Shown here piece by piece: positions 2-18,608 of a stretch of 64,000 nt of DNA. Both the position numbers and the translations under genes were made by a program. Location of the stretch: NCBI RefSeq assembly GCF_009712225.1, contig NZ_WASP01000006.1, positions 878,826 through 942,825 of the forward strand, written 5' to 3'. The DNA is from Desulfovibrio sp. GTDB lineage: Bacteria; Desulfobacterota; Desulfovibrionia; Desulfovibrionales; Desulfovibrionaceae. Within the stretch, counting starts at the first letter, position 1, and every line of letters starts with the position of its first letter. The notes under the pieces were generated by a model. The model made no database searches, was not told the DNA's origin, and was given only the letters and a program-made list of their open reading frames with translations.

Positions 2-2005
2 CACCGCTATTTACATAATAACATTTCAGAAACAAATCTGTCATACTCAAACACTCAATATGACATTATAACACAATTAAAATCGCATGCGTATCTCTCT
101 CAGCTCATCAACAAATCAGTAAATTACGAATCAATCGAGAGCCGCAATTATTACGTTTCGTGCCTCAAAACATTCTGGAAGGACATAGCAAAAAAGCTCA
201 CACAGAAAGACAATACACTTATTTCATTAAGAAACAGCATTGTCAGCTGGGACATATTTTGGAAAACAGCTGCGGAAGTTATGGATATTTCAACAATTCA
301 GGTTCAAGCAATACTTCCCATGCTCCACCAGGAAGATTCACTGGAGTTTTTTTATCGCCTCAACATGTGGCACAGCGTGTCGCCAGAGTCTTTTCAACCT
401 ACACAAGAAAAATACAATTACCTGTTAGCGTGGACAAGGCTGTCCGAAAGCGCCCATAAGTACGGCATTCCGTTATGCAAACCGCATGTACTCTGGAAAC
501 CTGGACACACAGACGCAGACGAGCAGTTTGTTGTGCAGTCAATTCTGCACAGTTGCGGGTTGTCCACACCTGAATCGATCGCGCAAGACAACACCACGCT
601 GAAATCTCATGACTGTTTGCGTTTTGCGGCCTTGACGTTGCCGCCACCCTTCCCTTTCGCCTTTCAGGTGTTAGGAGTGCAGACAAAATTTTGCGCCGAT
701 GCATGGCAATCTTCAATGCATCAGAGCGTGCTAGCCTCCTTGCGCCAAGGCGAAATGCAGGGTCTTTTTTCGCTGAAGCCTCTCAGTCCAGCCTCAATGC
801 GGAAAAAAGCATTGGAACTGGGGCAGGACGGCAATGACAAACTATGCCGTCTATATCCGGAAATCAGCGCGGCCATGCAGGCTGGCCCGGAAAATCCTGT
901 GGAAACTCCCAATGAACCAGTGCACACGCTATCTGCAGATAACATTGAAAAATGCATCCATCTTTTATCCGTAGAGCAAAAGCAGTGGATATCCCACTGC
1001 ATGGAAACAGAATTCAAATCATTAACTGACGAACAGATATGCATAAAACAGCATCTCAACCATAAACTTCAGACAAAAAAAGAGTATCAAGATACTCAAT
1101 ACGTTATCAGCGTACTAACGCTCGCATATAACGCAAAAGACTACATAGCCCAAAATATAGAAAGCATCATTGACCAGCAATGTTCTGTTCCCATCCAGCA
1201 TATAATTGTTGATGACGGTTCAGACGATGACACACAAAATATTATTGAGAGCTATGCCCGGCGCTTTGCGCATATCAAACCCGTTTTTATTCCGAGGTTT
1301 CCACGACATAACGGGGGCGACAACGTAAAAACACTGTTTGGTAGATGCCATACTAAATATGCTGCTATCTGTGATGGGGATGATTATTTTACAGATCCGC
1401 ACAAACTTCAAAAACAGTATGATTTTCTTGAAAAACACGCTGAGTGCGCGCTGTGTTTTCACCCTGTCAACGTAACCTATGAAGACGGTTCACCAACACG
1501 CACATATCCTCCGGAAAACATTTTGCGGGGGGGTGTTCGCCAGTTTTACTCAATTAAAGATCTGCTTTTTGCCAATTTCATGCAGACAAATTCTGTGATG
1601 TACCGCTGGCGCTTTACAGATGGCCTGCCTGACTGGTTTGACCCAACCCTTGTTCCCAGTGATTGGTACTGGCATCTGTTGCACGCCGAAACAGGCCTCA
1701 TTGGCTATCTCAAAGAGCATATGAGCGTTTATCGTCGCCATGCCGCATCGCTCTACGCCTCAGCCGAAGGTGACCACGTCGACCATAGAGCTGTTCATGG
1801 ACTTAATGAACTGCGCACCTACAACACCCTGAACAGGCACTTCAAAAATCGGCACTACGATGATTTTTGCCGCCTTGCCATGGGTGTTTTGGCTGACTTT
1901 GTACAAATTTATATGCAGACAGGCGATGATTCATTGATTCAGAAAGGCATATCCATCTGTCCGGAATTCGGACAGGATTTTTTGAAGAAGATACAGGGAT
2001 CATAG
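2..2005 (+). CDS. Family 2 glycosyltransferase with long N-terminal extension (5' end outside window)
   Basis: The frame is open without a stop from base 2 to the TAG at 2003-2005, so the gene enters from the left and the first ATG at 281 is internal. Of 667 visible residues, about 365-600 form a GT-A fold. It has the N-terminal beta strand ending LTLAYN, the DDGSDDDT nucleotide-binding segment, and ICDGDDYFTD as the metal-binding DxD region. Such enzymes move a sugar from a nucleotide-sugar to a lipid-linked or LPS acceptor in the cytoplasm. The first ~350 residues are unassigned and partly helical. It heads a plus-strand surface-glycan cluster. The glycosyltransferase call is firm; donor and acceptor are unknown. 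Confidence 0.85.
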   Translation, partial: HRYLHNNISETNLSYSNTQYDIITQLKSHAYLSQLINKSVNYESIESRNYYVSCLKTFWKDIAKKLTQKDNTLISLRNSIVSWDIFWKTAAEVMDISTIQVQAILPMLHQEDSLEFFYRLNMWHSVSPESFQPTQEKYNYLLAWTRLSESAHKYGIPLCKPHVLWKPGHTDADEQFVVQSILHSCGLSTPESIAQDNTTLKSHDCLRFAALTLPPPFPFAFQVLGVQTKFCADAWQSSMHQSVLASLRQGEMQGLFSLKPLSPASMRKKALELGQDGNDKLCRLYPEISAAMQAGPENPVETPNEPVHTLSADNIEKCIHLLSVEQKQWISHCMETEFKSLTDEQICIKQHLNHKLQTKKEYQDTQYVISVLTLAYNAKDYIAQNIESIIDQQCSVPIQHIIVDDGSDDDTQNIIESYARRFAHIKPVFIPRFPRHNGGDNVKTLFGRCHTKYAAICDGDDYFTDPHKLQKQYDFLEKHAECALCFHPVNVTYEDGSPTRTYPPENILRGGVRQFYSIKDLLFANFMQTNSVMYRWRFTDGLPDWFDPTLVPSDWYWHLLHAETGLIGYLKEHMSVYRRHAASLYASAEGDHVDHRAVHGLNELRTYNTLNRHFKNRHYDDFCRLAMGVLADFVQIYMQTGDDSLIQKGISICPEFGQDFLKKIQGS

Positions 2006-5422: not shown

Positions 5423-6094
5423 ATGGCCTACATCGATTTTCTCTCGCCACTGCACAAGGCTACAACGCGCGACTACCTGGGCAGAGTCAACGCCCCGGAA
5501 TACCCCAAAGCCAAGGCCGCGGCCCTGGCAAAACAGTGGGGCTTTGACTACTGGGATGGCGACAGGCGCATTTGCTATGGAGGCTATCGCTACATGCCGG
5601 GCCGATGGGAACCTGTGGCAAGCGCCATGATTGCCCATTACGGACTTCGCCCTGGCGACAAGATTCTTGATATCGGCTGCGGAAAAGGATTCCAGCTGGC
5701 AGAATTGAAAAAAGTCATGCCAGAACTTGAAGTATATGGCCTGGACATATCAGACTACGCATTGTCCAACGCCCATGAAAGTGTCGCCGCAAACCTGCGC
5801 CAGGGCAGCGCAGTTTCCCTGCCGTGGCCCGACAACTATTTTGATTTTGTCTTTTCCATCACCACGCTGCACAACCTGATGTGTCACGAACTGGACAAAG
5901 CGTTGCGGGAAATGGAAAGAGTGGGAAAAAAGAACAAATACCTGTGTGTTGAATCGTACCGCAATGAAGAGGAAAAAGCCAACCTGCTCTACTGGCAGGT
6001 CACTTGCGAAAGTTTTTACACTCCAGAAGAATGGAACTGGTGGTTTGAGCACACAGGCTACTCTGGCGATCACTCATTTATCTATTTTGAATAA
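5423..6094 (+). CDS. Class I SAM-dependent methyltransferase
   Basis: This 223-residue protein has a clear motif I, ILDIGCGKGF, at about residues 80-90. The acidic strand VYGLDISDYA follows, then LPWPDNYFDFVFSITTLHN as the motif IV region, typical of the Methyltransf_11/25 group. AGGA precedes ATG 5423. Its TAA stop overlaps the nearest ATG of the next frame, so it is probably cotranscribed with the glycan genes on both sides. The C-terminus (about 185-223) is aromatic-rich and may form the substrate lid. The target is likely a nucleotide-sugar or glycan, by context only. Confidence 0.8.
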   Translation: MAYIDFLSPLHKATTRDYLGRVNAPEYPKAKAAALAKQWGFDYWDGDRRICYGGYRYMPGRWEPVASAMIAHYGLRPGDKILDIGCGKGFQLAELKKVMPELEVYGLDISDYALSNAHESVAANLRQGSAVSLPWPDNYFDFVFSITTLHNLMCHELDKALREMERVGKKNKYLCVESYRNEEEKANLLYWQVTCESFYTPEEWNWWFEHTGYSGDHSFIYFE

Positions 6095-6111: not shown

Positions 6112-7965
6112 ATGAATGAGCGCAACACGAATATTCACATTCTGATTCCTGTTTGGGGTGAAGATTATCTTGCCGCATTCATGAATACAGCAATGGAAAC
6201 ATTGCTTTCGCCTGACAATGTACCATTTATTGCAAAAAAATGTAATGTCACTGCTGTCTTTTTAACAACAAAAGACAGCATAGAATACATTCCGAGGCAT
6301 GGTAATTTTAAAAGACTCAGTGAAGCGTGTAATGTTGCATATGAGCCTATTGATGATCTTCTTGCCGAAAGTTCCGACTATACAATGCCTCTAACCCTGG
6401 CCTATGTTCGTGGTATTACACGAACTGGCCAGGATATGACCAATACGTACTTCATCTTTTTCAATGCTGATTTTATTTTATCAAATGGAAGCCTGACACA
6501 TGTGCAAAAATTGATTCAGCAGGATAACGACATTATCCTTGCCACGAGCTTTAGAGCAAATTCTGGAGACATTTTACCAGAGTTGCATGAGCTTGTTGAT
6601 TCTCATCATGGAAATATTCCATCACGCGCACTTGCACGGCTTTCACTTAAACACAGGCACCACACTGTTATTTCACGAACAGTCAACCAAAACACCTACA
6701 CAAACACACACTGGAATCAGGTATACTGGAAAGTTGACAGTCAAACTATTCTGGCAAGATATTTTCTTACGACACTTTTTTGTTTTCGTCCTACAGTTTA
6801 TAGTGCAACAATAGACTCCTTTATAGACTACAACATGGTTGGAACCTTCTGCCCATCTGGAAAAATAGCTACTATTGCTGATTCCGATGATTTCTTTTTG
6901 CTTGAAATGCAAAATTTTCAGCAAGAACTGTATTTTTTAAAGATGGGCGTTCCCACCGTTCGTTGTGTTGCTGATTCCGTATCGGCATGGACAACAGAAT
7001 GGCACCGTCGCCAATCCCGCTACGAAACAGTCATCCATGGCGAAGATCTGCCTTCCAGTCTGGCGGAAGAGCGTCGTTGTTTCCAGAACTTCATGGCGGA
7101 AGTTGAGAAAGAGCTTGCACCCTGCCCGCTTCCCCCAAAGACGCACCATCACTGGATCGGCGCATTAAGACTATGGGCACCGCGCAAGATGCGCTATGAC
7201 CGAACGCATAGCGACATACAGCCCTGCACGGGCGTCTCCATGCCCCTTGCACGCATTGATGCCAGCATGGAGAAAAAAACACGTGGCCGCGTTGCCCAAG
7301 CCATGGCGCTCTTTCTTGGCGTACCGCCCAAAGCGTTCCCCTGGCACCCCTTGTGGGGAAACTACAGGGCCATAGACAAGACAATCAAATCCCATTGTTC
7401 CGAAAACAGGGACCTGCTGTTCATCACTGACAGCTTTGCTTATGACGGCATTGTCATGCAGCACGCAAAGGTTACCAAAATTTTTGCTGCGGATGCCCTC
7501 AACGGCCATCTGGACAAGCTGTGCCCGGGCAAAAAGTTTTCGGCGTGCCTTGTTGCCGTTGAATGCGACAATCTTGATGTTCAGCGCATTGTTGACAGCA
7601 TTGCCCCGCATCTAGATGGTCCGCAGACGGTCATGCTCTTTTTTGGCAGGACGATGAGCAAGCTTACCCGTAAAAACAAGCATTTCATGGATGTATATTA
7701 TCACGCCATGTCAGACCTTGCCCCCTATAGCCCACACTTGACCCATATTGGCAACTGGCTGGGGCTCACGCTTACAAAGTGGATGCTGGACGCTATCAAC
7801 AGGGTAAAGCTTAATCCTGCCTGGCATCTCCCACAGATGCTGGGGGTTTCTTTTGCCTGCCTGATTAACAATCTCTCCAGCGTATTTTTCGCACGCAGGC
7901 GTGGCACTCCCGGTGTTACCGGCGTACTTGCGGTATTCTCACTCAAAAGTGACAATGCATCATGA
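6112..7965 (+). CDS. Two-domain protein: unfamiliar glycosyltransferase-like N-terminus plus Rossmann-like C-terminus
   Basis: This protein has 617 residues from ATG 6112 (GGATGG upstream); ATG 6094, overlapping the previous stop, is the alternative. Residues ~1-320 begin with a strand and VWGEDY, then LLSPDNVPFIAKK, VFLTTKD and FIFFNADFI. This pattern recurs in the protein at 11828-13663 and resembles a GT-A fold, with NAD replacing a DxD. Residues ~410-600 look like a degenerate nucleotide-binding domain (DLLFITDSFAYDG, then strands and ML--FFGR). I do not recognise a named family. Base composition jumps from AT-rich to GC-rich near 6960, inside the gene. Likely role: glycan assembly, inferred from context. 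Confidence 0.6.
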   Translation: MNERNTNIHILIPVWGEDYLAAFMNTAMETLLSPDNVPFIAKKCNVTAVFLTTKDSIEYIPRHGNFKRLSEACNVAYEPIDDLLAESSDYTMPLTLAYVRGITRTGQDMTNTYFIFFNADFILSNGSLTHVQKLIQQDNDIILATSFRANSGDILPELHELVDSHHGNIPSRALARLSLKHRHHTVISRTVNQNTYTNTHWNQVYWKVDSQTILARYFLTTLFCFRPTVYSATIDSFIDYNMVGTFCPSGKIATIADSDDFFLLEMQNFQQELYFLKMGVPTVRCVADSVSAWTTEWHRRQSRYETVIHGEDLPSSLAEERRCFQNFMAEVEKELAPCPLPPKTHHHWIGALRLWAPRKMRYDRTHSDIQPCTGVSMPLARIDASMEKKTRGRVAQAMALFLGVPPKAFPWHPLWGNYRAIDKTIKSHCSENRDLLFITDSFAYDGIVMQHAKVTKIFAADALNGHLDKLCPGKKFSACLVAVECDNLDVQRIVDSIAPHLDGPQTVMLFFGRTMSKLTRKNKHFMDVYYHAMSDLAPYSPHLTHIGNWLGLTLTKWMLDAINRVKLNPAWHLPQMLGVSFACLINNLSSVFFARRRGTPGVTGVLAVFSLKSDNAS

Positions 7966-9098
7966 GCACGACAAATAGTGTTGATGTGCGCTGCCTCGGT
8001 TGCCATGCGCCGAAGGTTGAGTTGGTTCTTGATCTGGGCCCGCAACCTCCCAGCAATCTTTTTCTCGGCTGTGCAACGCAGCAGTACCCTACGCACCCTT
8101 TGCGCTTTGGCGTTTGTACCTCTTGCGGCCTTGCGCAGATCGTTGACCCCATGCCGGAAAACATGGTGCGCTGTACGCACGACTGGCTTCGCTATGATGA
8201 GCCGGAACAGCACCTCGATGATCTGGCCTCATACCTCTCATCCGCCGTTGGCAAGCAGAACCCCCATGTATGCGGCGTCAGCTACAAGGATTCGACGCTG
8301 TTGAATCGGCTGGAGAGCTACGGCTGGGCCGCGTCTTCACCCATGGCGACCTCTCATGCCCAGCCGCAGGCCGATGTGCTGATCGCCCGTCACGTTCTGG
8401 AGCATGCCCGTAATCCCCAGCAGTTTATCGCCTCCTGCTCCGCCATGATCCACCCGGATGGACTGCTGGTTTTTGAGGTGCCCGGTTTTGAAAGGATGCT
8501 ACAGCAGCACCAGCATTGTTTTTTGTGGGAGGAACATATCCTCTATTTTACCAGGGCCAACCTGAAAGACTTTTTGCTCTCCTGCAAACTTGAGGTGCTG
8601 GAGATACTGGAATACCCCCTGCCGCTGGAAAATTCGATTGTTGCAATAGCCCGCCCTGCTCAATCTGCCGCCCCTGCCGCATGCAGCGATAAAGACAGCC
8701 TGGATGAGCAGATTGGCATGGTGCGCTGCTTCGGATCATCCTTGCACAGTCAAGGAGCCAAAGCACAGCAGGTTCTTAAACGGGCATCCTGCGCAGGCAA
8801 GGGCATCAGCCTTTTCGGAGCCGGCCATCTGGGCATGAAGTATATACATTTCTATGGCCTGGAGCCTTTTCTGGAAACAGTTCTGGACGATCATCCCCAG
8901 AAAAGGGGCACATTTCTGCCTGGCTCATTTTTGCCGGTTAATGATTCCTCATGGCTGGCGCAGCATCCGGAAGGGTTTTGCCTTGTGGCCGTCAATCCTG
9001 AAAAGCACACCATATTGCAGCAGCGACACGCTTTCTTCTCCCCGGGTGGGGGCAAGTGGCAGTCCATTTTTTCCGGCATATCCGATTTTTGGGTGTAA
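7962..9098 (+). CDS. Sugar C-methyltransferase homologue with eroded SAM motif
   Basis: The 378-residue protein has three parts of the NovU/TylC3 C-methyltransferase family. First is an N-terminal zinc-binding domain (CLGC, later CTSC). The middle is a methyltransferase domain with VLEHARNPQQF and WEEHILYFT. The C-terminal C-methyltransf_14 domain begins SLFGAGHLGMKY and contains VLDDHPQKRG. Where its relatives have DIGSNDGTLL it reads GVSYKDSTLL, and the stretch to the next strand is shortened, so SAM binding is doubtful. It overlaps the upstream stop (ATGA). It may be a structural partner of the intact homologue at 10549-11808, or may have changed function. Confidence 0.75.
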   Translation: MSTTNSVDVRCLGCHAPKVELVLDLGPQPPSNLFLGCATQQYPTHPLRFGVCTSCGLAQIVDPMPENMVRCTHDWLRYDEPEQHLDDLASYLSSAVGKQNPHVCGVSYKDSTLLNRLESYGWAASSPMATSHAQPQADVLIARHVLEHARNPQQFIASCSAMIHPDGLLVFEVPGFERMLQQHQHCFLWEEHILYFTRANLKDFLLSCKLEVLEILEYPLPLENSIVAIARPAQSAAPAACSDKDSLDEQIGMVRCFGSSLHSQGAKAQQVLKRASCAGKGISLFGAGHLGMKYIHFYGLEPFLETVLDDHPQKRGTFLPGSFLPVNDSSWLAQHPEGFCLVAVNPEKHTILQQRHAFFSPGGGKWQSIFSGISDFWV

Positions 9099-9106
9099 GA
9101 GGAACC

Positions 9107-9637
9107 ATGGAACATATCTATCGCAAAAATCCCGGGGTGTTTATTGCTAATGGGCCGATTGCATGCGTAAACAGAAATGATCTGGACCGCATCAAGGAAG
9201 ATGCCTGTGCGGCCCCATTGCGAAGAAGCAGAATATGCGCCCATGCCAGTGCGAACGATCCGGTACAGGAAATGATTATTGCAATGTGCCACGATTCATA
9301 CATCGCGCCGCACAGGCATGTGGGCAAAACAGAATCTTTCCATATCATTGAAGGTCAGGCCGATATATATTTTTTTGAAGAATCCGGGGAGATCACAAGG
9401 ATTGTTTCTTTGAGTTCCGACAGCCCGGAAGGATTTTACTACCGTCTTTCCGCGCCGCTGTACCATACCGTGCTGCCGCACGGGCCCATGCTGGTTATAC
9501 ATGAAACAATCACCGGCCCATTTACCCCAGACGAATCAATAATTGCACCCTTTGCCCCGCATGCTGAAGATACCGTTGCCGTCCATAGTTATTTGAAGAT
9601 GTTGCGTGGACGCTACGACGCCTGTGCCGCACGATAA
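9107..9637 (+). CDS. WbuC-like cupin protein
   Basis: A 176-residue single-domain cupin. The metal-binding pattern is visible as HRHVGKTESFHIIEG, with a later LYHTVLPHG giving the last histidine. It matches what I know of the WbuC family found in O-antigen clusters, whose exact reaction is unsettled. The start at 9107 follows AAGAGGAACC nine bases after the previous stop. An upstream in-frame ATG at 9056 would run back into the methyltransferase gene and is rejected. The location between sugar-modifying genes agrees with a nucleotide-sugar isomerase or epimerase-like role. Confidence 0.75.
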   Translation: MEHIYRKNPGVFIANGPIACVNRNDLDRIKEDACAAPLRRSRICAHASANDPVQEMIIAMCHDSYIAPHRHVGKTESFHIIEGQADIYFFEESGEITRIVSLSSDSPEGFYYRLSAPLYHTVLPHGPMLVIHETITGPFTPDESIIAPFAPHAEDTVAVHSYLKMLRGRYDACAAR

Positions 9638-9649
9638 AGGATGACAGAT

Positions 9650-10537
9650 ATGAAAGAACAAGCCCATCTGGTAATCGGGGCGGACAGCCTGGTTGGAAGC
9701 AGCCTGATAGAAGCATTGCGGGAGCGCGGTCATCGGGTGTTTGGCACAACCAGACGCAAGGAAACATTGACTGCCGACCGTCTTTTTTTCGACTTTGAAG
9801 ACCCCACCCCACCCGAGTTTCCCGATGCGGTGGCGTATGTTCATGTGGTTGCAGCAGCTACGGACTATGCCCGTTGTGCCGCCCGCCCGGAATGCCACGC
9901 CATCAACACCGTGCATACGCCGCGCATGGTGGAAGCTCTTTTGCGTCGGGGGTTTTTTGTAAGCTTTATTTCAAGCAATTCTGTTTTCGGGGGCGACCGC
10001 CCCTGGCCGCATGAAGATGCCCCCCACGATGCCCGGTTTCCCTACGCAGTGCAGAAATCTCTGGCGGAAGAAGGCGTAAGACAGGCCGCACGCAATTGCC
10101 AAGCGGAACAGAGCCTGGCAATCATTCGGCTGACCAAGGTCATGGACGCCTCGTCCTCGCCTTTGCCAGCGTGGTTTGAGTCATGGCGTCAAGGGCAGCC
10201 CGTGCAACCTTTTGCCGACCTTACGTTTGCCCCGGTATCCAGACGCTTTGCCGCGAATTCTCTGGCTGCAATTGCCGAAAAAAAGGTAGCTGGCGCACTG
10301 CACGTTTCCGGCGCAGAAAACGTCACCTATGTTGATTTCGCCCATATTTTAGCCAAAACTCTGGGCGTTGACCCCAGGCTTATTGTTCCAACCACGGCTG
10401 TGGCCAAAGGGGTGGATATTCCTTTCAAGCCCCGTTTCAGCGGATTGGGCATGACCCGTACCACCGCCTGTACCGGCCTCCATCCGCAACCGGTTGATGA
10501 AGTTGTGAAAGATATTCTGTTGTCTGCCAGCTTATGA
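9650..10537 (+). CDS. NAD-dependent sugar epimerase/reductase (RfbD-like SDR)
   Basis: This 295-residue extended short-chain dehydrogenase starts with VIGADSLVGSSLIEAL as the Rossmann glycine region, has FISSNSVFGG as the catalytic Ser strand, and FPYAVQKSLAE as the YxxxK motif. It resembles dTDP-4-dehydrorhamnose reductases and NDP-4-ketosugar reductases. ATG 9650 is preferred because AAAGGA lies eight bases ahead, whereas ATG 9641 is only two bases from it. The gene probably finishes a deoxysugar after C-methylation by its neighbours. The last bases overlap a potential start of the next gene. Confidence 0.8.
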   Translation: MKEQAHLVIGADSLVGSSLIEALRERGHRVFGTTRRKETLTADRLFFDFEDPTPPEFPDAVAYVHVVAAATDYARCAARPECHAINTVHTPRMVEALLRRGFFVSFISSNSVFGGDRPWPHEDAPHDARFPYAVQKSLAEEGVRQAARNCQAEQSLAIIRLTKVMDASSSPLPAWFESWRQGQPVQPFADLTFAPVSRRFAANSLAAIAEKKVAGALHVSGAENVTYVDFAHILAKTLGVDPRLIVPTTAVAKGVDIPFKPRFSGLGMTRTTACTGLHPQPVDEVVKDILLSASL

Positions 10538-10548
10538 GGAGTTTATGC

Positions 10549-11808
10549 ATGCGAGTCTATCACCGTCCCACCTGCCGTCTGTGCAATTCTGATAATGTCA
10601 ATCTCGCTGTTAAACTCGAGCCTATCCCTTTGGCGGAAGCCTACAGTGCAACAGCCGAGGAAGGCAGGAACATCCCCCGTTTTCCCGTAGACTTGTATAT
10701 GTGCGGCGACTGCGGGCATGTTCAGCAACTGGATGTGGTTGATGCTGAAAGCCTGTGGAGCAAATATACCTATTTTTCCGGGTCGGCCAAGGGCATGCCC
10801 GAGCATTTTGCCGAAGTTGCCGCGCGCATCATGGCCGATTACCCCGCTCCAAACGGCTCACTTGTTGTTGATATCGGCAGTAATGACGGGTCGATGCTGC
10901 GCCCCTTCAAGGCCGCTGGCCTGCGCGTTCTGGGAGTGGACCCGGCTGAAACGGTTGCCGCCGAGGCCAACCGGCAGGGAATTCCAACCATTGTAGCACC
11001 CATGAGTCTGGAACTTGCCAAGCGCATCCGCAAGGAGCACGGGCCAGCCCATCTGGTTTTCATGTTCAATGCCTTTGCGCATATGGACAACCTGCAAGAA
11101 ATAGCCGATTGCGTCGCCGAGCTTCTTCATGAAGATGGCGTCTTTGTTTTTGAATCCCAATATGTTTCTGACATTATTGAAAAACGCCTGATCGCAACCA
11201 TCTTTCATGAACACATGAGCCACCATTCTGCCGTTGCGCTGGTGCCTTTCTTCAAACGGCACGGTCTGGAAATGATAGACATCCAGCGCGTACCCATCCA
11301 GCACGGCTCCATTATTGGCGTTGCCCAGCACCTGCATGGGCCGCATGCAATGTGCCCCTCGGTGGAGACCCTGCTCGACTTTGAACACAAGCAGGGGCTC
11401 GACCAGATTGCTGTTTTCCGCGCCTTTGCGGATGACATAGCAACAATGCGTGAGCGTATCCGCCTCTGGGCGCAGGCGCGCACAGCCGAAGGGGCATGCA
11501 TTGCAGGCTACGGGGCAGCGCGTAGCGGCCCCACCCTCATCGCGCAACTGGGCCTGGAAAACATGCTGCAGTACATTCTGGACGACCACCCGCAAAAGGT
11601 GGGGCTACACACATCAGGCGAAGGCACACTTATTGTGCCAACAAAAGAACTGTACGAGCGCATGCCGCCCTATACCGTCATTCTTGCCTGGGTACATGCG
11701 GCAAAGATCATTCAGGAACATCAGGAATACCTTGAACGCGGCGGCACCTTTGTGGTGCTTTGCCCCCAGCCGAGGCTTGTGAACCGTAACGGAGAAGCCC
11801 CTCTGTAA
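10549..11808 (+). CDS. Nucleotide-sugar C-methyltransferase (NovU/TylC3-like)
   Basis: This 419-residue protein contains the full architecture. The zinc-binding N-terminus has CRLC and CGDC pairs. The SAM domain has LVVDIGSNDGSML and VLGVDPAE. FHEHMSHHS is the catalytic His/Glu region. The C-methyltransf_14 domain has AGYGAARSG and ILDDHPQKVG. Family members methylate C-3 of NDP-4-keto-deoxysugars. ATG 10549 is chosen over 10534 because GAGGAG sits seven bases before it. Compared with the paralogue at 7962-9098, all key motifs are intact, so this is probably the active enzyme. It is cotranscribed with the reductase upstream. Confidence 0.85.
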   Translation: MRVYHRPTCRLCNSDNVNLAVKLEPIPLAEAYSATAEEGRNIPRFPVDLYMCGDCGHVQQLDVVDAESLWSKYTYFSGSAKGMPEHFAEVAARIMADYPAPNGSLVVDIGSNDGSMLRPFKAAGLRVLGVDPAETVAAEANRQGIPTIVAPMSLELAKRIRKEHGPAHLVFMFNAFAHMDNLQEIADCVAELLHEDGVFVFESQYVSDIIEKRLIATIFHEHMSHHSAVALVPFFKRHGLEMIDIQRVPIQHGSIIGVAQHLHGPHAMCPSVETLLDFEHKQGLDQIAVFRAFADDIATMRERIRLWAQARTAEGACIAGYGAARSGPTLIAQLGLENMLQYILDDHPQKVGLHTSGEGTLIVPTKELYERMPPYTVILAWVHAAKIIQEHQEYLERGGTFVVLCPQPRLVNRNGEAPL

Positions 11809-11827
11809 TGCATTCGGGAAAACCAGC

Positions 11828-13663
11828 ATGAACACGACTCCAAGCTCCGATCCCGGCTATCTCCTCCATGAGGATGAAGTGCGTCAATTTGCAGACCTGG
11901 CAGCATCCATGCTGGGGCAGCGGTTGGACAGCCTGAATGGTGAAGAACGCATTCGTGCATGCCACGCCCTTCTGGAACAGCACCCGTATGCGTATCCATT
12001 CGCCCTGGAGCTTTCACTTCGCTTGCCGCCAGCCATGGCCATCACATGGCTGCGCAAGCTTCGGGAGACATTTTATGCCCAGGAAGACGTGCAGAACGAG
12101 ATAGATCCTTTCCAGATTTGGCGAATGCCGCCAATACAGGCGCTGACGACAGCCCTGCGTCATTCGGAGAGAGCTGGTTTCTTTCTTCCCGGGGTAATGG
12201 CGTATTTGCAGGAGCACCGCCCTGCCCTGGCCAGATGCTTCCAAATGAAGCGAGGCAATAACAAGCCTGACGGCACATTTCAGACCTGCTGCGGCAGGCT
12301 GCTGCAAGGCATAGGCAGGCTCTTTTACCGAGCATGTGCAGCACCCGGCCAGATGTTGCCTGAGCCTCTGTTGCGCTTCTATATGCGCCACGACACAAAA
12401 GACAGATCCGGAAACCCGCCCCAGCGCATGGCAACATGGTTTTTGGCCTATATTCTGGCAAACCGGCAGGTGGAAACACAGAGAGAAAGGCTTCGCCGCG
12501 GAGCCGTTGCGCTTCCAGCGGAAGAAGAACCCAGCACGGGCGGTCAACAGGCCTCGGAGAAGAGCATTGATGTTGTCACTGTCATCTGGGGAAAAACCTA
12601 CGTGGAGCGCTGGGCAGAGATCAATGCTCCCACACTTCTGGCCCCCGGCAATATCCCCGCCATGGCTAAAAAAATGTCCGTATGTCTTGTCTTTTATACA
12701 ACGCATGAAGACAGAGACAGGATACGCAGCCTGCCCGTTTACCGCAGACTGAAACAGTTTGCGGCAATCCGCTTTGTAATAATGGACAGCATGTTGCGGG
12801 ATACAGCGCACGACTTGCTGGGATTGCGTTTTGCCGACAAGTATGCGCCCATGACCGCAGCCCATAACCATTGCATGCGCCATGCCGCCCAAAAAGGGCG
12901 TTATGTATTCTTCAACTTTCCAGACATCATATGGCAGAAAGATTTTTTTGAAAAAATCAGCGCACGCATCAAGAGTGGAAAAACTCACATATTTTATTAT
13001 TCAGGGCCATACACCGAGCTTGAAGCAGTTCAGAAAAACATCAAAAAATTCCTTGATGACGACGTATTGGCAATAAGCAATGAAGGTCTGCGTGAAATAT
13101 GCTCAAAATACAGGCACACATCATCACTGCTTAATTATGACAATTCACCATTGCGCTATTTTGGCGCCATCATGCGGATGTACAGGATCAAAACGCATGG
13201 CGACATTATCCACATGGCATGTTTTGTCCCCATAATCCTCAAACCGGATCCCAATATCTACACGCGAACAACCATTGATGCTGATCATCCGATAAGCCCT
13301 CTCCTGCCGCCACAGCAAATGGAGATCATTACAGACAACGTGTCACTGTGTGTTGCCAGCATGGACCCTCGTGCAGCTCAGGATAACGCAATGCGCTGGC
13401 CCCCCTATGACCTCGCCAGCTTTGCCAGGGATTTTCGGCTGGGAATGAACCTGTGGAACAGAATTTTTTTTTCCTTGCCCTGTCGTTTTTATTCGGGAGC
13501 AATAAGCAGCGAAGAAGAATGGGGCAAGGCACATCAAACTGCCTCGCGTGAAGTAAAAGAAATACTGCATTTCGGGAGCAAGGCACTGCCGGTACCTCCA
13601 GCAGAAATCTTCACTGCTGGGGCACGAAATTTCCTGCAAAATACCATGCAAGAATATATGTAG
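11828..13663 (+). CDS. Unfamiliar glycosyltransferase-like protein, paralogue of the 6112-7965 product
   Basis: In this 611-residue protein, residues ~1-240 are helical, leucine-rich and unassigned. At about 246 a domain starts IDVVTVIWGKTYVERW, followed by LLAPGNIPAMAKK, VFYTTHED and VFFNFPDIIW. This matches the N-terminal domain of the 6112-7965 protein strand for strand. The domain looks like a nucleotide-sugar-binding fold, but a classic DxD is absent. The domain is in reverse arrangement compared with its paralogue: C-terminal here, N-terminal there. AT-rich patches occur near 12900-13300. It probably transfers a sugar or modifies a glycan, by context only. Confidence 0.6.
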   Translation: MNTTPSSDPGYLLHEDEVRQFADLAASMLGQRLDSLNGEERIRACHALLEQHPYAYPFALELSLRLPPAMAITWLRKLRETFYAQEDVQNEIDPFQIWRMPPIQALTTALRHSERAGFFLPGVMAYLQEHRPALARCFQMKRGNNKPDGTFQTCCGRLLQGIGRLFYRACAAPGQMLPEPLLRFYMRHDTKDRSGNPPQRMATWFLAYILANRQVETQRERLRRGAVALPAEEEPSTGGQQASEKSIDVVTVIWGKTYVERWAEINAPTLLAPGNIPAMAKKMSVCLVFYTTHEDRDRIRSLPVYRRLKQFAAIRFVIMDSMLRDTAHDLLGLRFADKYAPMTAAHNHCMRHAAQKGRYVFFNFPDIIWQKDFFEKISARIKSGKTHIFYYSGPYTELEAVQKNIKKFLDDDVLAISNEGLREICSKYRHTSSLLNYDNSPLRYFGAIMRMYRIKTHGDIIHMACFVPIILKPDPNIYTRTTIDADHPISPLLPPQQMEIITDNVSLCVASMDPRAAQDNAMRWPPYDLASFARDFRLGMNLWNRIFFSLPCRFYSGAISSEEEWGKAHQTASREVKEILHFGSKALPVPPAEIFTAGARNFLQNTMQEYM

Positions 13664-13673
13664 AGAGGATACA

Positions 13674-14741
13674 ATGTACACTATAGAGCAAAAAACAGCT
13701 CGGGCAGCCATACTTGTTCAAAGTCGCTCTCCGCTGGTGATTGATACCATCTCACTGCCGGAAAAGCTTGATTATGGTCAGGTACTTGTCCAGGTTCTGT
13801 ATTCAGGAATTTGCGGCTCGCAGCTGGGAGAAATAGACGCCCGTAAAGGAGAAGACCACTATTTGCCGCACCTCCTCGGGCATGAGGCTGCCGCAAAAGT
13901 GGTTCAATGCGGCCCTGGTGTTCGGCATGTACACGCTGGTGACATGGTCGTTTTGCACTGGCGAAAAGGCCTGGGCATTGAGGCTGCTCCCCCAGCCTAC
14001 CTCTGGCAGGGGCGCAAACTCAATGCTGGCTGGGTGACCACATTCAACGATTATGCTGTCATTTCAGAAAACAGGATGACTCCTGTACCAGCCGGTACCC
14101 CACCCCACATCCTGCCCCTGTTCGGTTGTGCCCTGACCACCGGATTTGGCGCTGTTGTCAATGACGCAAAGGTCAAGCTTGGAGAGTCTGTTGTTGTTTT
14201 GGGCGCAGGCGGTGTAGGGCTCAACATTGTTCAGGCGGCGGCGCTGAGCGGAGCTTTCCCCATTATCGCCGTAGACCTGTACGACAACAGGCTGGAGCTG
14301 GCAAAACGTATGGGTGCAACCCATACAGTTAATGGAGCCGCAGCAGACACCCGCAAGGCCATCAAGGATATTTTGGCCTCAGTTCAGATGCCGCAGGGTG
14401 CGGATGTTTGCATCGACAACACAGGCCAGAGCCAATGCATTGCCATGGCCTATGAATTGACCCACTCGCGGGGCAGAACCGTTTGTGTGGGAGTCCCGGC
14501 CAAAAATGACGCCACAACCATTTATACGCTCCCGCTTCATTTTGGTAAAAGTATTACCGGTTCGCATGGCGGAGAAACCATCCCGCACGAAGACATTCCA
14601 CGATATCTGAGACTTGCCCAATCCAAGAATATTGATCTGGATATCTTGATCTCTGAAACGTATCCGCTGGAAGAAATCAATACCGCGATTGACAAAATGC
14701 GCTCTGGAGAAGTTGCCGGACGCTGCCTCATCACATTCTAG
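13674..14741 (+). CDS. Medium-chain (zinc-type) dehydrogenase
   Basis: This 355-residue MDR protein has catalytic-zinc ligands Cys47 (GICGSQ) and His70-Glu71 (LLGHEA). The cofactor loop is VLGAGGVGLN, near residue 178. The structural zinc lobe with four spaced cysteines seen in many alcohol dehydrogenases is missing; that region reads HWRKGLGIEAAPP. The start follows GAGAGGAT. As the last gene of the glycan cluster it may oxidise or reduce a sugar or an alcohol-type side chain. The substrate is not predictable, and NAD rather than NADP preference is a guess from the acidic VDLYDN after the second strand. Confidence 0.8.
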   Translation: MYTIEQKTARAAILVQSRSPLVIDTISLPEKLDYGQVLVQVLYSGICGSQLGEIDARKGEDHYLPHLLGHEAAAKVVQCGPGVRHVHAGDMVVLHWRKGLGIEAAPPAYLWQGRKLNAGWVTTFNDYAVISENRMTPVPAGTPPHILPLFGCALTTGFGAVVNDAKVKLGESVVVLGAGGVGLNIVQAAALSGAFPIIAVDLYDNRLELAKRMGATHTVNGAAADTRKAIKDILASVQMPQGADVCIDNTGQSQCIAMAYELTHSRGRTVCVGVPAKNDATTIYTLPLHFGKSITGSHGGETIPHEDIPRYLRLAQSKNIDLDILISETYPLEEINTAIDKMRSGEVAGRCLITF

Positions 14742-14796
14742 TTTATTATCTACTGGCGGCCCAACACGCCTGCCCACGATAGAGATGCCCAGTCAG

Positions 14797-14893
14797 GTTA
14801 GACAGCTAGGCGACAATGGTATCCAGGCGAAAGCCTGAGGGGGGCCCAATTCGGGCGCAAAGCCACCGATGATCCCAATCTCGGCAACGAACA
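14797..14893 (+). ncRNA. Possible structured RNA, weakly GEMM-like
   Basis: Between two convergent genes the plus strand has a GAAA-capped hairpin (CAGGCGAAAGCCTG, 14824-14837). About 17 bases on comes GGGCGCAAAGCCACCG (14853-14868), which resembles the GACGCAAAGCC segment of c-di-GMP-I (GEMM) riboswitches. A CCGA/TCGG stem follows. The 5' strand and spacing do not fit the canonical fold, and no gene follows on this strand, so it is only a candidate. Confidence 0.25.
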
Positions 14894-14895
14894 AC

Positions 14896-14938
14896 AGGCG
14901 GCCAGGTTCACCTTACGGAAAGCCTGGCCGTCTGATTT
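14896..14938 (+). terminator. Probable terminator after the glycan cluster
   Basis: GGCGGCCAGG at 14897 pairs with CCTGGCCGTC at 14923-14932 around a 16-base loop, followed by a short T-rich stretch. It ends the plus-strand glycan operon before the convergent gene. Confidence 0.6.
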
Positions 14939-14979
14939 TATACCATGCGCGGATGCAGTTGCGTGCGCCAGCTCAGCTT

Positions 14980-16119
14980 TTACAGCATTTCGATAAATGC
15001 CTCTATGCGCACCTTGAGTTGCTCCGTATCGGTCTCGGAGTAGTCTGTTTCAATCTGCATAAAGGGCAGCTGCAAGGAATCCTGCACAAATTTTTTCAGT
15101 GAAGAAGATTCCACCGCGTAGGTCTGGCAGCCCTGCCAGGTCAGATCAACCACGGCATCGACCGAAAAATCTGCCGCCAGTTCCCTGATGGCCTCGTAGC
15201 GACGCGGATTGGGCGACATGACGGCACAGGGCACATCAAGATAACGGCGGGCCATCTCCGTCAGCGGATCGCCCTGCTCTGCCATCATCACGCGGGTTTT
15301 CTTGTAGCCAGAGCAGTTGTCGAGGCACACCACGCTGCCGCCGCATTCTTCAATAAGTCGCACAACCTTGTGCGATCCCATGCCCACGGGCACACCCGTA
15401 AGCAGAATGCGCGGGGCGGTGGCGGCAACGCCTGCTTGGCCCGCGTCGGCCATCTTGCCCAGTTCGTCGGCCAGTTCCAGCATCATGGTGATGCCTTTTT
15501 CCTTGTCGGGGAAGAAGGACGTTTTGAACCCGATTTCCAGCAGCTCCATGCCCGTTATGGGCGAGGGCTTGCGCTTGGCAAGATCCATCACGGCCTTGAG
15601 GGCCATACGTTCGCGGTTCATGAGCTTGATGGCGTCGCGCAGTTTTTGCTCGGTAATGGACACGTTAAATTCTTTTTCAAGATAGGCGATGAGCAGCTCA
15701 AACTGGTGCCTCCAGTAGGCAAGGGCGTCATCGTTCTGTACCTGCGGCAGTTGCAGCAAAAATACGGGCTTGTAGGCGGCAAGCAGCTCGTACATTTTCT
15801 TTTTGCCGTCACAGGTGGTGTCGGCCACCACCACATCGGCGGCGCTGAGGTAAGGACAGCTGTCCTTGAGGGCAAAGCCAAAGCTGCTCTTGATGAGCGG
15901 GCAAATGGCGCGTGGCAGCACTTCTTCCGCAGCGGGAATGGAGTCGTTGCGCGTCCCGCACAACGAAACAGGAATGGCCCCGGCGGCCACTGCTATTTCA
16001 GAAGGGCTGTACAAACAGTATTGCCCCACAACCTTTTTGCCGTCTTTTTTGGCCTCCTGCACGGCCAGGGCATTCTTTTCAAAAGCGGTGACGATACGGT
16101 CAAAGCTGGCGCACTTCAT
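14980..16119 (-). CDS. Double-cubane-type 2-hydroxyacyl-CoA dehydratase family protein (YjiM-like)
   Basis: This 379-residue HgdB/BadD-like protein has cysteines in the usual iron-sulfur positions (CLYSP, RAICPLIKS, CPYL, DTTCDGKKK, DNCSG, WQGCQTY). With only one such subunit and an adjacent activator, it fits the double-cubane-cluster proteins rather than a two-subunit acyl-CoA dehydratase. These take very-low-potential electrons from the activator to reduce small molecules; the physiological substrate is unknown. ATG 16119 follows GAGGAAGG; the upstream in-frame ATG at 16212 lacks such a site. It lies 40 bases downstream of the activator gene and is surely cotranscribed with it. Confidence 0.8.
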   Translation of the reverse strand: MKCASFDRIVTAFEKNALAVQEAKKDGKKVVGQYCLYSPSEIAVAAGAIPVSLCGTRNDSIPAAEEVLPRAICPLIKSSFGFALKDSCPYLSAADVVVADTTCDGKKKMYELLAAYKPVFLLQLPQVQNDDALAYWRHQFELLIAYLEKEFNVSITEQKLRDAIKLMNRERMALKAVMDLAKRKPSPITGMELLEIGFKTSFFPDKEKGITMMLELADELGKMADAGQAGVAATAPRILLTGVPVGMGSHKVVRLIEECGGSVVCLDNCSGYKKTRVMMAEQGDPLTEMARRYLDVPCAVMSPNPRRYEAIRELAADFSVDAVVDLTWQGCQTYAVESSSLKKFVQDSLQLPFMQIETDYSETDTEQLKVRIEAFIEML

Positions 16120-16159
16120 GGGCTTCCTTCCTCTTGTTTTAGGCTTCTGGTTGATGGGG

Positions 16160-17023
16160 TTATATGGATGCAACAGCTGTGCGACTGTTCCTTTCAAGCC
16201 AGTCTGCCGCAATCAGCGCGGCCCCCAGCGCGCCCACGGTCTGCGGGTCGTCTGGCACATTCACGGTCAGGCCAAGTTCGTCTGAAAGAATGGCCGCAAA
16301 GGCTGGGCTTGTGGCCAACCCGCCGGTAAACACACACTGTCCCTGCATGGGAATGCGGCGGGCAAGGGCGCACATCCTGCGGGCAATGGCGCGAAACACC
16401 CCGGCGGCAATATCCTGCGGGGGCGTACTGCGGGCAAGCAGGCCCACAATTTCCGTTTCGGCGAACACGGCGCACATGCTTGAAATGGCAACGGGATTAC
16501 CCGTTGAGGCTGCTCGGCCCAGTTCATCCAGCGGCATGTTCAAAATGCCAGAGAGCACCTGCAAAAAACGGCCAGTACCTGCGGCGCATTTGTCATTCAT
16601 CAAAAAATCGCGCACCGCGCCCGGTTTTGTCCCGCCCGGCTTGCCGCCCCTGGCTTCACGAGGCATTTCAAGGCTGATGACCTTGCTGTCCTGCCCGCCA
16701 ATATCAAGCACAAGCCCGGCCTGTGGAAAAAGCTGAGCCGCACCGCGAGCGTGACAGCTGATTTCCGTAACGGCCTTGTCGGCAAACGGCAGGGCAATGC
16801 GGCCATAGCCCGTGGCCGTTACACGCTGAAGCGCCCCACGCTCAACTGCCGCCTGTGTGCAGGCTTTTTCCAGCGCATACTCACCGGCTTCGGCGGTGTT
16901 CCAGCCAGTGGGCAACACGGCACGCCCGACCACACGCGGGGGCATCTGCGCCTGCAGTGGCTGTACCTCAAGCACCACGGCCTTTGCCGCGACAGAACCA
17001 ACATCAATACCTGCTACATACAT
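16160..17023 (-). CDS. Acyl-CoA dehydratase activase-type ATPase (YjiL-like)
   Basis: This 287-residue ASKHA-fold ATPase of the BadF/BadG/BcrA group has GIDVGSVAAK as phosphate-1, LVLDIGGQDSK as phosphate-2 and FTGGLATS as the adenosine motif. Two cysteines (NDKCAAGTG and SSMCAVF) bridge a [4Fe-4S] cluster between the two halves of the homodimer. Family members couple ATP hydrolysis to injecting a low-potential electron into the partner iron-sulfur enzyme, here the downstream YjiM-like protein. GCAGGAGCAG precedes the ATG. A hairpin with T-tract lies 40 bases upstream. Confidence 0.88.
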   Translation of the reverse strand: MYVAGIDVGSVAAKAVVLEVQPLQAQMPPRVVGRAVLPTGWNTAEAGEYALEKACTQAAVERGALQRVTATGYGRIALPFADKAVTEISCHARGAAQLFPQAGLVLDIGGQDSKVISLEMPREARGGKPGGTKPGAVRDFLMNDKCAAGTGRFLQVLSGILNMPLDELGRAASTGNPVAISSMCAVFAETEIVGLLARSTPPQDIAAGVFRAIARRMCALARRIPMQGQCVFTGGLATSPAFAAILSDELGLTVNVPDDPQTVGALGAALIAADWLERNSRTAVASI

Positions 17024-17060
17024 TCAACTGCTCCTGCGGCTGCCCGCCTGGTAAAAACCG

Positions 17061-17102
17061 CAAAACAAAAACCCGCCGTGCAGCGCAAGGCTGCAAGACG
17101 GG
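17061..17102 (-). terminator. Intrinsic terminator or attenuator in the activator leader
   Basis: On the minus strand CCCGTCTTGCAGC pairs with GCTGCACGGCGGG, followed by TTTTTGTTTTG. It lies only about 40 bases before the activator start codon at 17023. It could end an upstream transcript or act as a conditional attenuator for the two-gene operon. Confidence 0.6.
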
Positions 17103-17709
17103 CTGTAAGCCAATAAATAATCGCGCTTGGCCCTTTGGGCCGCGAGGTTGACAAAACTGGTAAATATGAAGTCAGGGCTGACTGTGCCGCGAGACTGCCA
17201 CAATGGACAGGCCAGCCGCCCAGTAAATACCAAAACGGCTAAAAACGACCGGATAGAGATGAGTGAAGAAAAATGGAATGAGCCCCGCCGCTTGCGGCTC
17301 TGGGCCGAAGCGCCGGAACCTATGGGGCGGCGTTGCTTCGCTGCAAAAGAGGGCCTCCAACCTGGAGGCACAGATGCATTCATGCCCCCCCGCCTTTTTT
17401 GGCGGGCAGCACATGACAAATCCTGAAAATACTCACAAGGGCCCTTGAGGTTACAGATTCCGCATAAGCCGCTTCATCAGAAACTGGATATCAACCTACC
17501 TGAAGGGCAACATATTGTCGATAGGGCTGCATTATTTGCTCATGAAGGCTTGAGAGGAGTGCAGGCCTCGCCGCGGTTGCCGCAAAGCTTGGGCACAGCA
17601 TGTGGGCAACCGCAGGAGGTACGTATTCGCACGTTACAGCTGGTAGTCAGGCTGCTGCCCTCATGCCCGGTCTTGGTGATGGTGATACGGTGGTGATACA
17701 AAAAGACAC
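17103..17709. other. Gene-poor stretch, leader and debris
   Basis: About 600 bases hold no convincing gene. It contains several GC-rich inverted repeats, for example around 17270-17335 and CCCGCC/GGCGGG at 17388-17405. A minus-strand open frame shows no recognisable domain. Part is probably the untranslated leader of the minus-strand activator operon. The portion near 17445-17700 may be eroded phage-end sequence. Confidence 0.4.
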
Positions 17710-17760
17710 AAAAAAGAGTTAGGATCTCCTAACCCTCTGACTTGCTTTTATACCGGGCGC
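17710..17760 (-). repeat. Left attachment-like repeat (tRNA-Leu 3' end plus terminator remnant)
   Basis: Read on the minus strand it has CCCGGTA, then about 14 bases, then AGGGTTAGGAG and a matching stem half and T-run. The right copy at 24264-24317 has the same order next to the real tRNA-Leu. The two agree at roughly three quarters of positions. It looks like the tRNA 3' end and terminator displaced by integration. Confidence 0.5.
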
Positions 17761-17898
17761 AAGTGCCATTTATCATATGTAACTTTGTTAAATATAATGA
17801 TAAAAATAATTCAACAAAAAATATCCCTAACATTTCCCTCTTTTTTATTCGGCGCCCTACTGGCGGCAGTATGCAATCTGAGAGATAATGAGGAGGAA

Positions 17899-17955
17899 TT
17901 GAGCCTTAAAAAAACGGCGCAAACGCCATGCACCGAAGAGAAAATCAAAAACTAG
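17899..17955 (+). other. Tiny reading frame with strong ribosome binding site
   Basis: GAGGAGG at 17890-17896 precedes a TTG-initiated frame of 18 codons ending TAG. It may be the surviving start of a truncated phage gene rather than a functional peptide. Nothing in it is recognisable. Confidence 0.2.
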
Positions 17956-17980
17956 CTCACCGCTTTCCGCACGGGATAGG

Positions 17981-18011
17981 AGAAAAGAAAAGCCCCCGAG
18001 TCGCCGGGGGC
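17981..18011 (-). terminator. Terminator after the XRE regulator
   Basis: On the minus strand GCCCCCG pairs with CGGGGGC around six bases, followed by TTTTCTTTTC. It lies 38 bases beyond the stop of the XRE gene. Confidence 0.8.
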
Positions 18012-18048
18012 AAAGGTGGGTGCATTCAGACACAGCGACGGATGTGCA

Positions 18049-18288
18049 CTATCCGTTCCGCTGCGGCCCTGTCGACGAATCTTCACCAGGGAGACATTCC
18101 AGAATGTCCCCCGGCTGGCAGTCCAGAAAGCGGCAGATGGCTTCCAAGGTGGAAAACCTGATGGCCTTGGCCTTACCAGTTTTCAGAATAGAGAGATTCT
18201 GGGCGGTTATGCCCACAGCCTCGGCCAAGGCCTTGGAGGAGACTTTCCTCTTGGCCAACATCACATCGAGATTAACCAGTATGGCCAT
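18049..18288 (-). CDS. Small XRE-family transcriptional regulator (YozG-like)
   Basis: This 79-residue protein is essentially one helix-turn-helix domain. ALAEAVGITAQNLSILKTGK is the HTH core, followed by the FSTLEAICRFLDCQPGDIL helix pair typical of the YozG-type Cro/CI group. Such proteins are usually encoded right beside a DUF2975 membrane protein and probably control it; the same arrangement is seen here, with AGGTGAAACC before ATG 18288. Its partner upstream has lost its N-terminus, so the regulator may now be an orphan. Expression would need a surviving promoter inside the truncated partner. Confidence 0.85.
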   Translation of the reverse strand: MAILVNLDVMLAKRKVSSKALAEAVGITAQNLSILKTGKAKAIRFSTLEAICRFLDCQPGDILECLPGEDSSTGPQRNG

Positions 18289-18296
18289 GGTTTCAC

Positions 18297-18608
18297 CTAG
18301 ATGGTCAAGGTACGTTCTTCTTCGATTCCCCGGCCTTCATCCATGACCCAGGAAATAACCAGGGCCGTAGCTCCGGCGAAAAGGGCGACGATTTCCACGG
18401 AGCCGATGCCCACGGAGATGTGCCGCTGGCCCTGGGGCATACCAATAGAGGAAGCCAAGGAAAGCAACGGCGTGTGCAGGAATGCGGCTGCAGCCCAATA
18501 CAATAACGTTCGTCCAAGCCTGCGATAGCACGTCACGTTGCGCGGGCTGAACAGTTCTCCAGATGCGTAGAGGCCAAACAAGCCACTGAGCACCGAAAAA
18601 CCCCGCAC
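18297..18608 (-). pseudogene. DUF2975 membrane protein, N-terminally truncated
   Basis: About 100 codons remain of a DUF2975-like protein. They include the family segment LYASGELFSPRNV and two hydrophobic stretches (LYWAAAAFLHTPLLSLA and IVALFAGATALVISWVM). Full members have about 150-180 residues with four membrane helices, so the first one or two helices are missing. The frame runs into unrelated phage sequence near 18605, and the GTG there is probably a fortuitous start. It ends nine bases before the XRE start, as expected for this two-gene unit. Confidence 0.65.

Follow-up and report, generated by a model that had tools for sequence, protein, structure and literature searches.

Two proteins encoded in a glycan gene cluster of Desulfovibrio sp., here called A and B, probably belong to an unnamed family of glycosyltransferases with the glycosyltransferase A (GT-A) fold, which we refer to as the WG family. 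Their genes lie in a stretch of 64,000 nucleotides (the window; assembly GCF_009712225.1, contig NZ_WASP01000006.1, positions 878,826 to 942,825 of the forward strand). In this reading, which we consider probable, A would be an inverting enzyme and the two proteins would take part in building a methylated surface glycan; A is a good candidate enzyme and B an uncertain one. The reading is carried by the homology of the two copies, their predicted fold, their conserved residues and the genomic linkage of their genes.

6112..7965, plus strand: protein A (617 amino acids), N-terminal WG-type GT-A domain and C-terminal methyltransferase-like domain
6112..7152, plus strand: GT-A-like domain of A, residues 1-347 (AlphaFold2 model, VIA-align)
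11828..13663, plus strand: protein B (611 amino acids), helical N-terminal part and C-terminal WG-type GT-A domain
12551..13492, plus strand: GT-A-like domain of B, residues 242-555 (VIA-align)

Both open reading frames (ORFs) are present at these positions. The longest ORF of A begins at an in-frame ATG at 6094, and the ATG at 6112 agrees with the start region of the orthologue in another genome, G041. By sequence comparison, A and B carry one homologous domain of approximately 330-350 residues: BLASTP aligns them with E=1e-10 (26% over 121 amino acids), their score of 50.8 bits compares with a maximum of 24.6 among 500 shuffles of the C-terminal part of B, and an alignment of the A-clade profile with the B-clade profile spans 333 columns (E=4.7e-31). 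A preliminary description of this DNA had proposed the shared domain at about 250 residues; the homology stood, but the domain proved longer. The motif pairs it had named in A and B do line up in the same sequence, the FFN-AD/FFNFPD pair with a single gap, and the domain does sit in swapped positions, at residues 1-347 of A and 242-555 of B.

Both copies are predicted to adopt a GT-A fold, as had been supposed, and neither has a normal DxD motif. The AlphaFold2 model of A has a mean predicted local distance difference test score (pLDDT) of 86.3 and a predicted template modelling score (pTM) of 0.83. The model of B reaches a mean pLDDT of 75.2 and a pTM of 0.67, with the glycosyltransferase part mostly above 85 and the N-terminal part poor. 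Compared by VIA-align, the domain of A matches K4CP (2z86_B, Z 12.8, root-mean-square deviation [rmsd] 4.1, 227 aligned residues) and AvpGT (9jn3_B, Z 12.6, rmsd 3.0, 185 aligned). The domain of B has AvpGT at the top (9jn3_B, Z 13.1, rmsd 5.8, 227 aligned), together with WrtF (Z 12.1, rmsd 5.1, 188 aligned) and SpsA (1h7l, Z 11.9, rmsd 4.1, 199 aligned). Across the domain, the matches listed are glycosyltransferases or enzymes that contain such a domain, among them K4CP, AvpGT, WrtF, CgT, SpsA, TarP/TarS and LH3; of these we take SpsA, K4CP, TarP/TarS and CgT to belong to glycosyltransferase family 2 (GT2). Rows no more than one Z unit apart count as tied, and therefore no single closest relative can be named. 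The fucosyltransferase WrtF, present in the VIA lists of both proteins, also ranks first for A by Foldseek (E 4.6e-06), but with a template modelling score (TM) of only 0.46 of the target and an rmsd of 11.4. WrtF and AvpGT, both of solved structure, differ from the two copies, at about 9-14% identity, and their Z scores are tied with those of many other GT-A enzymes. A sequence search of the PDB gave no match for the glycosyltransferase domain at E 0.001, WrtF and AvpGT included; there were none for A, and the six for B, none better than E 0.07, appear to be noise.

A full-length structural match comes from a virus. Among predicted virus structures, the glycosyltransferase domain of A resembles A0A6J5PWU5, from an uncultured Caudovirales phage in BFVD, over 341 columns at 20% identity (rmsd 2.4, TM 0.86 relative to the target, E 1.3e-24; the next viral structure is at 2.8e-09). 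Unlike A, this uncharacterized viral protein stands alone at 342 residues, and the two were compared by structure alone. A match so nearly exact suggests a discrete family. With two relatives as sequence queries, the phage records gave no match; on viral contigs, none of 16 stretches found with patterns derived from alignment A2 was confirmed, and the DNA pattern returned none.

Conservation was counted over 79 rows, after rows shorter than 200 residues and contained duplicates had been dropped; the equivalents in B were read from a second alignment, A4, of 43 rows.

6154..6159, plus strand: W15-G16 of A, the first signature motif (both residues in 75 of 79 rows, gaps in the remaining 4)
6202..6219, plus strand: L31-L-S-P-D-N36 of A, a variant of the LLAPGN motif (alignment)
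6463..6471, plus strand: N118-A119-D120 of A, at the place of the GT2 DxD, with the second aspartate alone kept (D in 76 of 79 rows)
6658..6660, plus strand: H183 of A, conserved (H in 74 of 79 rows)
6826..6828, plus strand: D239 of A, candidate catalytic base (putative role; D in 77 of 79 rows)
6880..6891, plus strand: D257-S258-D259-D260 of A, the DSD motif (D257 in 63, S258 in 61 and D259 in 57 of 79 rows)
12923..12925, plus strand: D366 of B, equivalent to D120 (invariant in A4)
13115..13117, plus strand: H430 of B, equivalent to H183 (invariant in A4)
13277..13279, plus strand: D484 of B, equivalent to D239 (nearly invariant in A4)

A thus retains NAD, D239 and DSDD, and D120, D239, D257 and D259 occur jointly in 50 of the 79 rows. 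The features of a WG-type domain (a whole-domain profile match, WG, an LLAPGN-type motif, and the lone aspartate, histidine and aspartate) are all found. The family is like GT2 (PF00535) in its GT-A fold, in a strand followed by an aspartate at the DxD position and, putatively, in the position of the base, and differs from it in motifs of its own, namely WG-x2-Y, LLAPGN, H183 and DSD. A and B also differ from GT2 in falling below the Pfam cut-off and in missing the first DxD aspartate. PF00535 touches A at E=0.01 and 16.2 bits, under the gathering cut-off of 23.3, and has no match in B at E 0.1; GT2 is touched by 3 of 42 relatives, the best at E 0.0005. When the WG family was compared by hhalign with a set of 14 of the 16 GT2 proteins of the same genome (the two without the trimming motif were excluded), the alignment covered 51 columns at E=0.0071 and laid D120 on the second aspartate of DxD, with controls at 0.46 (methyltransferase) and 0.39 (epimerase).

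No named family covers the domain in three profile libraries, in line with the preliminary description. Nothing in Pfam or NCBIfam scores above cut-off for A or B, and in PHROGs the one match (E 0.09) lies outside the domain, and none is convincing. Over 43 members, PHROGs gave weak matches to four families, one member each, and over 42 relatives NCBIfam gave one unrelated weak match. Among the titles listed by literature searches on the module described below, on WrtF, on flagellin glycosylation in Desulfovibrio and on new families of glycosyltransferases, none names the WG family.

The window's own genome, searched with A, holds just these two copies. Among 101 genomes, the window's own included, three match B and two match A; G041 matches both and G056 matches B only. 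A sample of the phylum gave matches in 2 of 395 genomes, one of them the window's own. A better profile finds a WG domain in 14 of 288 genomes of the Desulfovibrionaceae, the family to which the window belongs; the pair of A and B, proposed as something to look for elsewhere in this family, was found, but in just 2 of the 288, and the other 12 comprise nine with a single match and three with two or three of other types. The same profile found the domain in 25 of 385 genomes sampled from the class of Pacificispira spongiicola, which we take to be the Alphaproteobacteria. Two such proteins, annotated as hypothetical, lie in a sugar cluster on a plasmid of Solidesulfovibrio carbinolicus, with a third copy elsewhere on that plasmid.

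A DNA pattern for WG-x2-Y-x11-LLAPGN, run on a collection of species genomes, returned 74 stretches, 63 of which have a profile match and lie on 56 contigs, G041's among them; 16 of these contigs carry at least two copies within the stretches examined. The other 11 were taken as chance matches, of which 10 serve as controls because one (L081) shares a contig with a match. The members found come mostly from Proteobacteria, and also from Desulfobacterota, Nitrospirota and single metagenome-assembled genomes labelled Acidimicrobiia and Sericytochromatia. Nine genomes or records were searched whole, and each has all its copies on a single contig; in the alphaproteobacterial sample, some genomes have copies on two contigs. 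One Nitrospirales genome (G492, contig C9, 407-424 kb, L144) has five WG ORFs with six matches within 17 kb, and in L024 ABC exporter genes adjoin the WG ORFs.

Just upstream of the window lie genes for an NTP transferase, a dehydratase/epimerase, a GmhA-like SIS isomerase, an HldE-like kinase, a radical S-adenosylmethionine (SAM)/SPASM protein, a split transketolase and an APH-like kinase, and a HAD-like gene whose match is weak and below cut-off.

L092 (C6:860001-879500), 11916-18554: module of SIS isomerase, HldE-like kinase, radical SAM/SPASM, split transketolase, HAD and APH-like kinase

Upstream of the sugar genes, at a distance of a few kb, is an ORF for a KAS III-like ketoacyl synthase (L092, 6304-7494; best match 4efi_A, E=1.2e-57). 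With the core set defined as seven genes (dehydratase, SIS, HldE, HAD, the two transketolase halves and APH), at least one core gene occurs on 25 of the 56 WG contigs and at least two on 19, against none of the 10 chance-match contigs. Within regions of at most 20 kb, at least one core gene is present in 11 of 20, compared with 3 of 20 control regions placed arbitrarily in seven WG-bearing genomes (Fisher p 0.019), and at least two in 9 compared with 1 (of 20 each; Fisher p 0.008). Of the 288 family genomes, 44 carry the HAD gene: 12 of the 14 WG-bearing genomes and 32 of the 274 others (p=2.8e-9, uncorrected for relatedness); in each of those 12 genomes it lies within about 13 kb of the WG genes. 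Since 32 genomes without a WG match have it, the module is more widespread than the family, to which it is attached among other things. Around the relatives, 91 of 263 neighbouring ORFs were scanned (guesses from the longest ORF, made with no gene calls) and include 12 Methyltransf_23, 10 Epimerase, 5 SIS_2 and 4 GT2 proteins.

A number of observations weigh against a glycosyltransferase family tied to this module. The first aspartate of DxD is present in 1 of the 79 rows (A has NAD and B has FPD), and the DSD motif is absent from B, where TDN stands in its place, as it does in G041, while G056 has QGN. The hhalign link to GT2 is marginal, at a probability of 5.5% for the whole family; the A clade alone reaches E=0.07 against the same set, and the C-terminal part of A scores nearly alike (E=0.013). 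The GT2 set was, moreover, trimmed by its DxD motif, and this could bias the alignment toward that register. Taken with the E value of the A clade, the score of the C-terminal part leaves the GT2 profile link with little weight alone, and it lowers our confidence in the glycosyltransferase reading. As for structure, only three Foldseek matches of B reach E 0.001, and sugar nucleotidyltransferases of related fold are among the Foldseek matches of both proteins. As for the module, 31 of the 56 WG contigs have no core gene within the stretch examined, and the linkage is strong in one Desulfovibrionaceae genus (7 of 8 regions) and falls elsewhere to 4 of 12, or 2 of 12 for at least two genes.

The nucleotidyltransferases raise the question of whether the WG domain might itself be a sugar-1-phosphate nucleotidyltransferase, a related fold. 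They stand, however, among the lower Foldseek matches, and the top-ranked matches across the domain are glycosyltransferases; a separate NTP_transferase gene is present in the same cluster, and the frequent presence of several WG copies in one cluster fits transferases better. We regard this identity as highly improbable.

The altered residues of B bear on a different possibility, in which B is degenerate and binds the growing glycan or A, leaving sugar transfer to A alone. All three B-type rows lack DSD and also lack the DG that follows the lone aspartate. B nevertheless retains D366, H430 and D484, incomplete residue sets are common (the 50 of 79 rows given above have the full set), and G056 has B and module genes with no match to A, which would be surprising if B were A's helper. 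Such a degenerate B is possible, if doubtful. The preliminary description had imagined sequential transfers by A and B, a suggestion that does not find support: B lacks conserved residues kept in A, and so two equal catalytic steps should not be assumed.

That A and B occupy one cluster and share one domain invites the explanation that they were duplicated there and then exchanged partner domains. In a tree of the 79 rows, A falls in a clade of 35 rows, 33 of them Pseudomonadota, with support of 100 in the Shimodaira-Hasegawa-like approximate likelihood ratio test (SH-aLRT), and B in a separate clade of three rows, also with SH-aLRT 100. Several members of the A clade also have the C-terminal domain of A. 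The best tree in which the A and B rows are joined is 44 log units worse, although the approximately unbiased (AU) test, weakened by several long branches, keeps a single clade at the 0.05 level (p=0.059). Local duplication is disfavoured, and we hold duplication followed by exchange of partners to be quite unlikely.

The partner domains are different in the two proteins, and both had been described correctly in outline: that of A is Rossmann-like, with a predicted class I methyltransferase fold, and that of B is helical in a model of low confidence.

7294..7950, plus strand: C-terminal domain of A, resembling class I methyltransferases, residues 395-613 (3vse_C by VIA-align, Z 12.0, rmsd 3.3, 145 aligned)
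11828..12502, plus strand: helical N-terminal part of B, residues 1-225 (low-confidence model)

The N-terminal part of B had significant matches in G041 and G056 only, among the loci then compared. The WG domain itself is mobile. Among 53 ORFs uncut by the end of a stretch (lengths taken from stop to stop), it precedes another part of at least 150 residues in 23, follows one in 9, is nearly stand-alone in 19 and occurs in two copies in 2. Two WG domains share a frame in L033 (893-7262) and in L070 (997-3318), and in L033 three domains are spread over two adjacent ORFs.

The fold of its C-terminal domain suggests that A could be bifunctional, a glycosyltransferase joined to an active SAM-dependent methyltransferase, and a profile of A-type proteins does match a solved tRNA methyltransferase in the PDB through this part (8k5l, E=0.00096). 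A glycine-rich loop is a motif of class I SAM methyltransferases, and here the domain departs from them: in an alignment of 15 members, no such loop was seen after the first Rossmann strand and conservation is low, on which grounds the domain is probably not a SAM enzyme. It also has no Pfam methyltransferase match, its profile shows no link to the neighbouring methyltransferases (E 0.17), and the cluster already has separate methyltransferases. A second activity in A is, we believe, very improbable.

The setting of A and B in a glycan cluster, which the preliminary description had recognised, is borne out, and the two genes also co-occur in G041. The types of gene present are GT2, B12/radical SAM, methyltransferase, cupin, reductase and dehydrogenase, and those placed within the window are as follows.

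281..2005, plus strand: ordinary GT2 glycosyltransferase (PF00535, E=1.3e-18)
5423..6094, plus strand: SAM-dependent methyltransferase adjoining A, with homologues near some relatives (profile match)
7962..9098, plus strand: Methyltransf_13/14-type C-methyltransferase (Pfam)
9056..9637, plus strand: WbuC-type cupin (TIGR04366, 129.3 bits, cut-off 42)
9641..10537, plus strand: RmlD-like sugar-nucleotide reductase (PF04321, E=3.3e-20)
10534..11808, plus strand: second Methyltransf_13/14-type C-methyltransferase (Pfam)
13674..14741, plus strand: zinc alcohol dehydrogenase, the final plus-strand cluster gene on this side (Pfam)

In 2-kb steps along the window, the G+C content is 42-45% up to 7 kb and 51-56% between about 7 and 15 kb, which may point to a mosaic cluster whose border falls at A. 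Past the glycan cluster, the minus strand encodes a 2-hydroxyglutaryl-CoA dehydratase D-component and a BadF/BcrA-type ATPase (14980-17023). A DUF4815 protein (18691-20787) and a DNA methylase-like ORF (23392-24117) could mark the start of a prophage after the cluster.

What, then, might these proteins do? The metal-ligand and base roles are those of GT2 enzymes, and for the WG family we infer the metal site and the base from the alignment and secondary structure. A would be an inverting, nucleotide-sugar-dependent glycosyltransferase, its donor held at the ends of strand 1, which bears the WG motif, and of strand 4. D120, the single aspartate at the place of the GT2 DxD, would hold a divalent metal, and D239 would be the base acting on the acceptor. 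The methyltransferase-like domain, which has no recognisable SAM loop, would probably serve as a structural or binding module. B might be another transferase, one whose site is altered, or a non-catalytic partner that binds the acceptor. Both would act in the assembly of a surface glycan that is methylated, probably a lipopolysaccharide or a different polysaccharide; the neighbouring genes of transketolase, HAD, kinase and heptose type would supply its unusual sugar. Flagellin was considered as the target and is not favoured: the window's genome, G041 and G056 have no MptE-like or Maf match, and flagellin matches number four in the window's genome, all either on different contigs or at a distance of about 570 kb. 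In favour of flagellin, though, an MptE-like gene lies about 5 kb from a WG gene in the S. carbinolicus plasmid (G1069) and about 2 kb from one in G1008.

A bolder proposal goes further: the WG proteins would form a new family at the level of CAZy, with a metal site of one aspartate, and would transfer a new higher-carbon sugar, the product of the linked module (split transketolase, SIS isomerase, HldE-like kinase/nucleotidyltransferase, HAD, APH-like kinase and radical SAM), yielding an undescribed surface sugar shared across phyla. As a whole we think this unlikely. The finding nevertheless provides a search handle, WG-x2-Y-x11-LLAPGN followed by the lone aspartate, histidine, aspartate and DSD, for a family unnamed in the three profile libraries, and it invites one to ask how an enzyme of GT-A fold might work with one aspartate where DxD is usual. 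With the family linked to a conserved but unassigned sugar-making module, its donor, its product and the glycan would be testable in strains such as Solidesulfovibrio carbinolicus, Nitrospirillum iridis or Pacificispira spongiicola.

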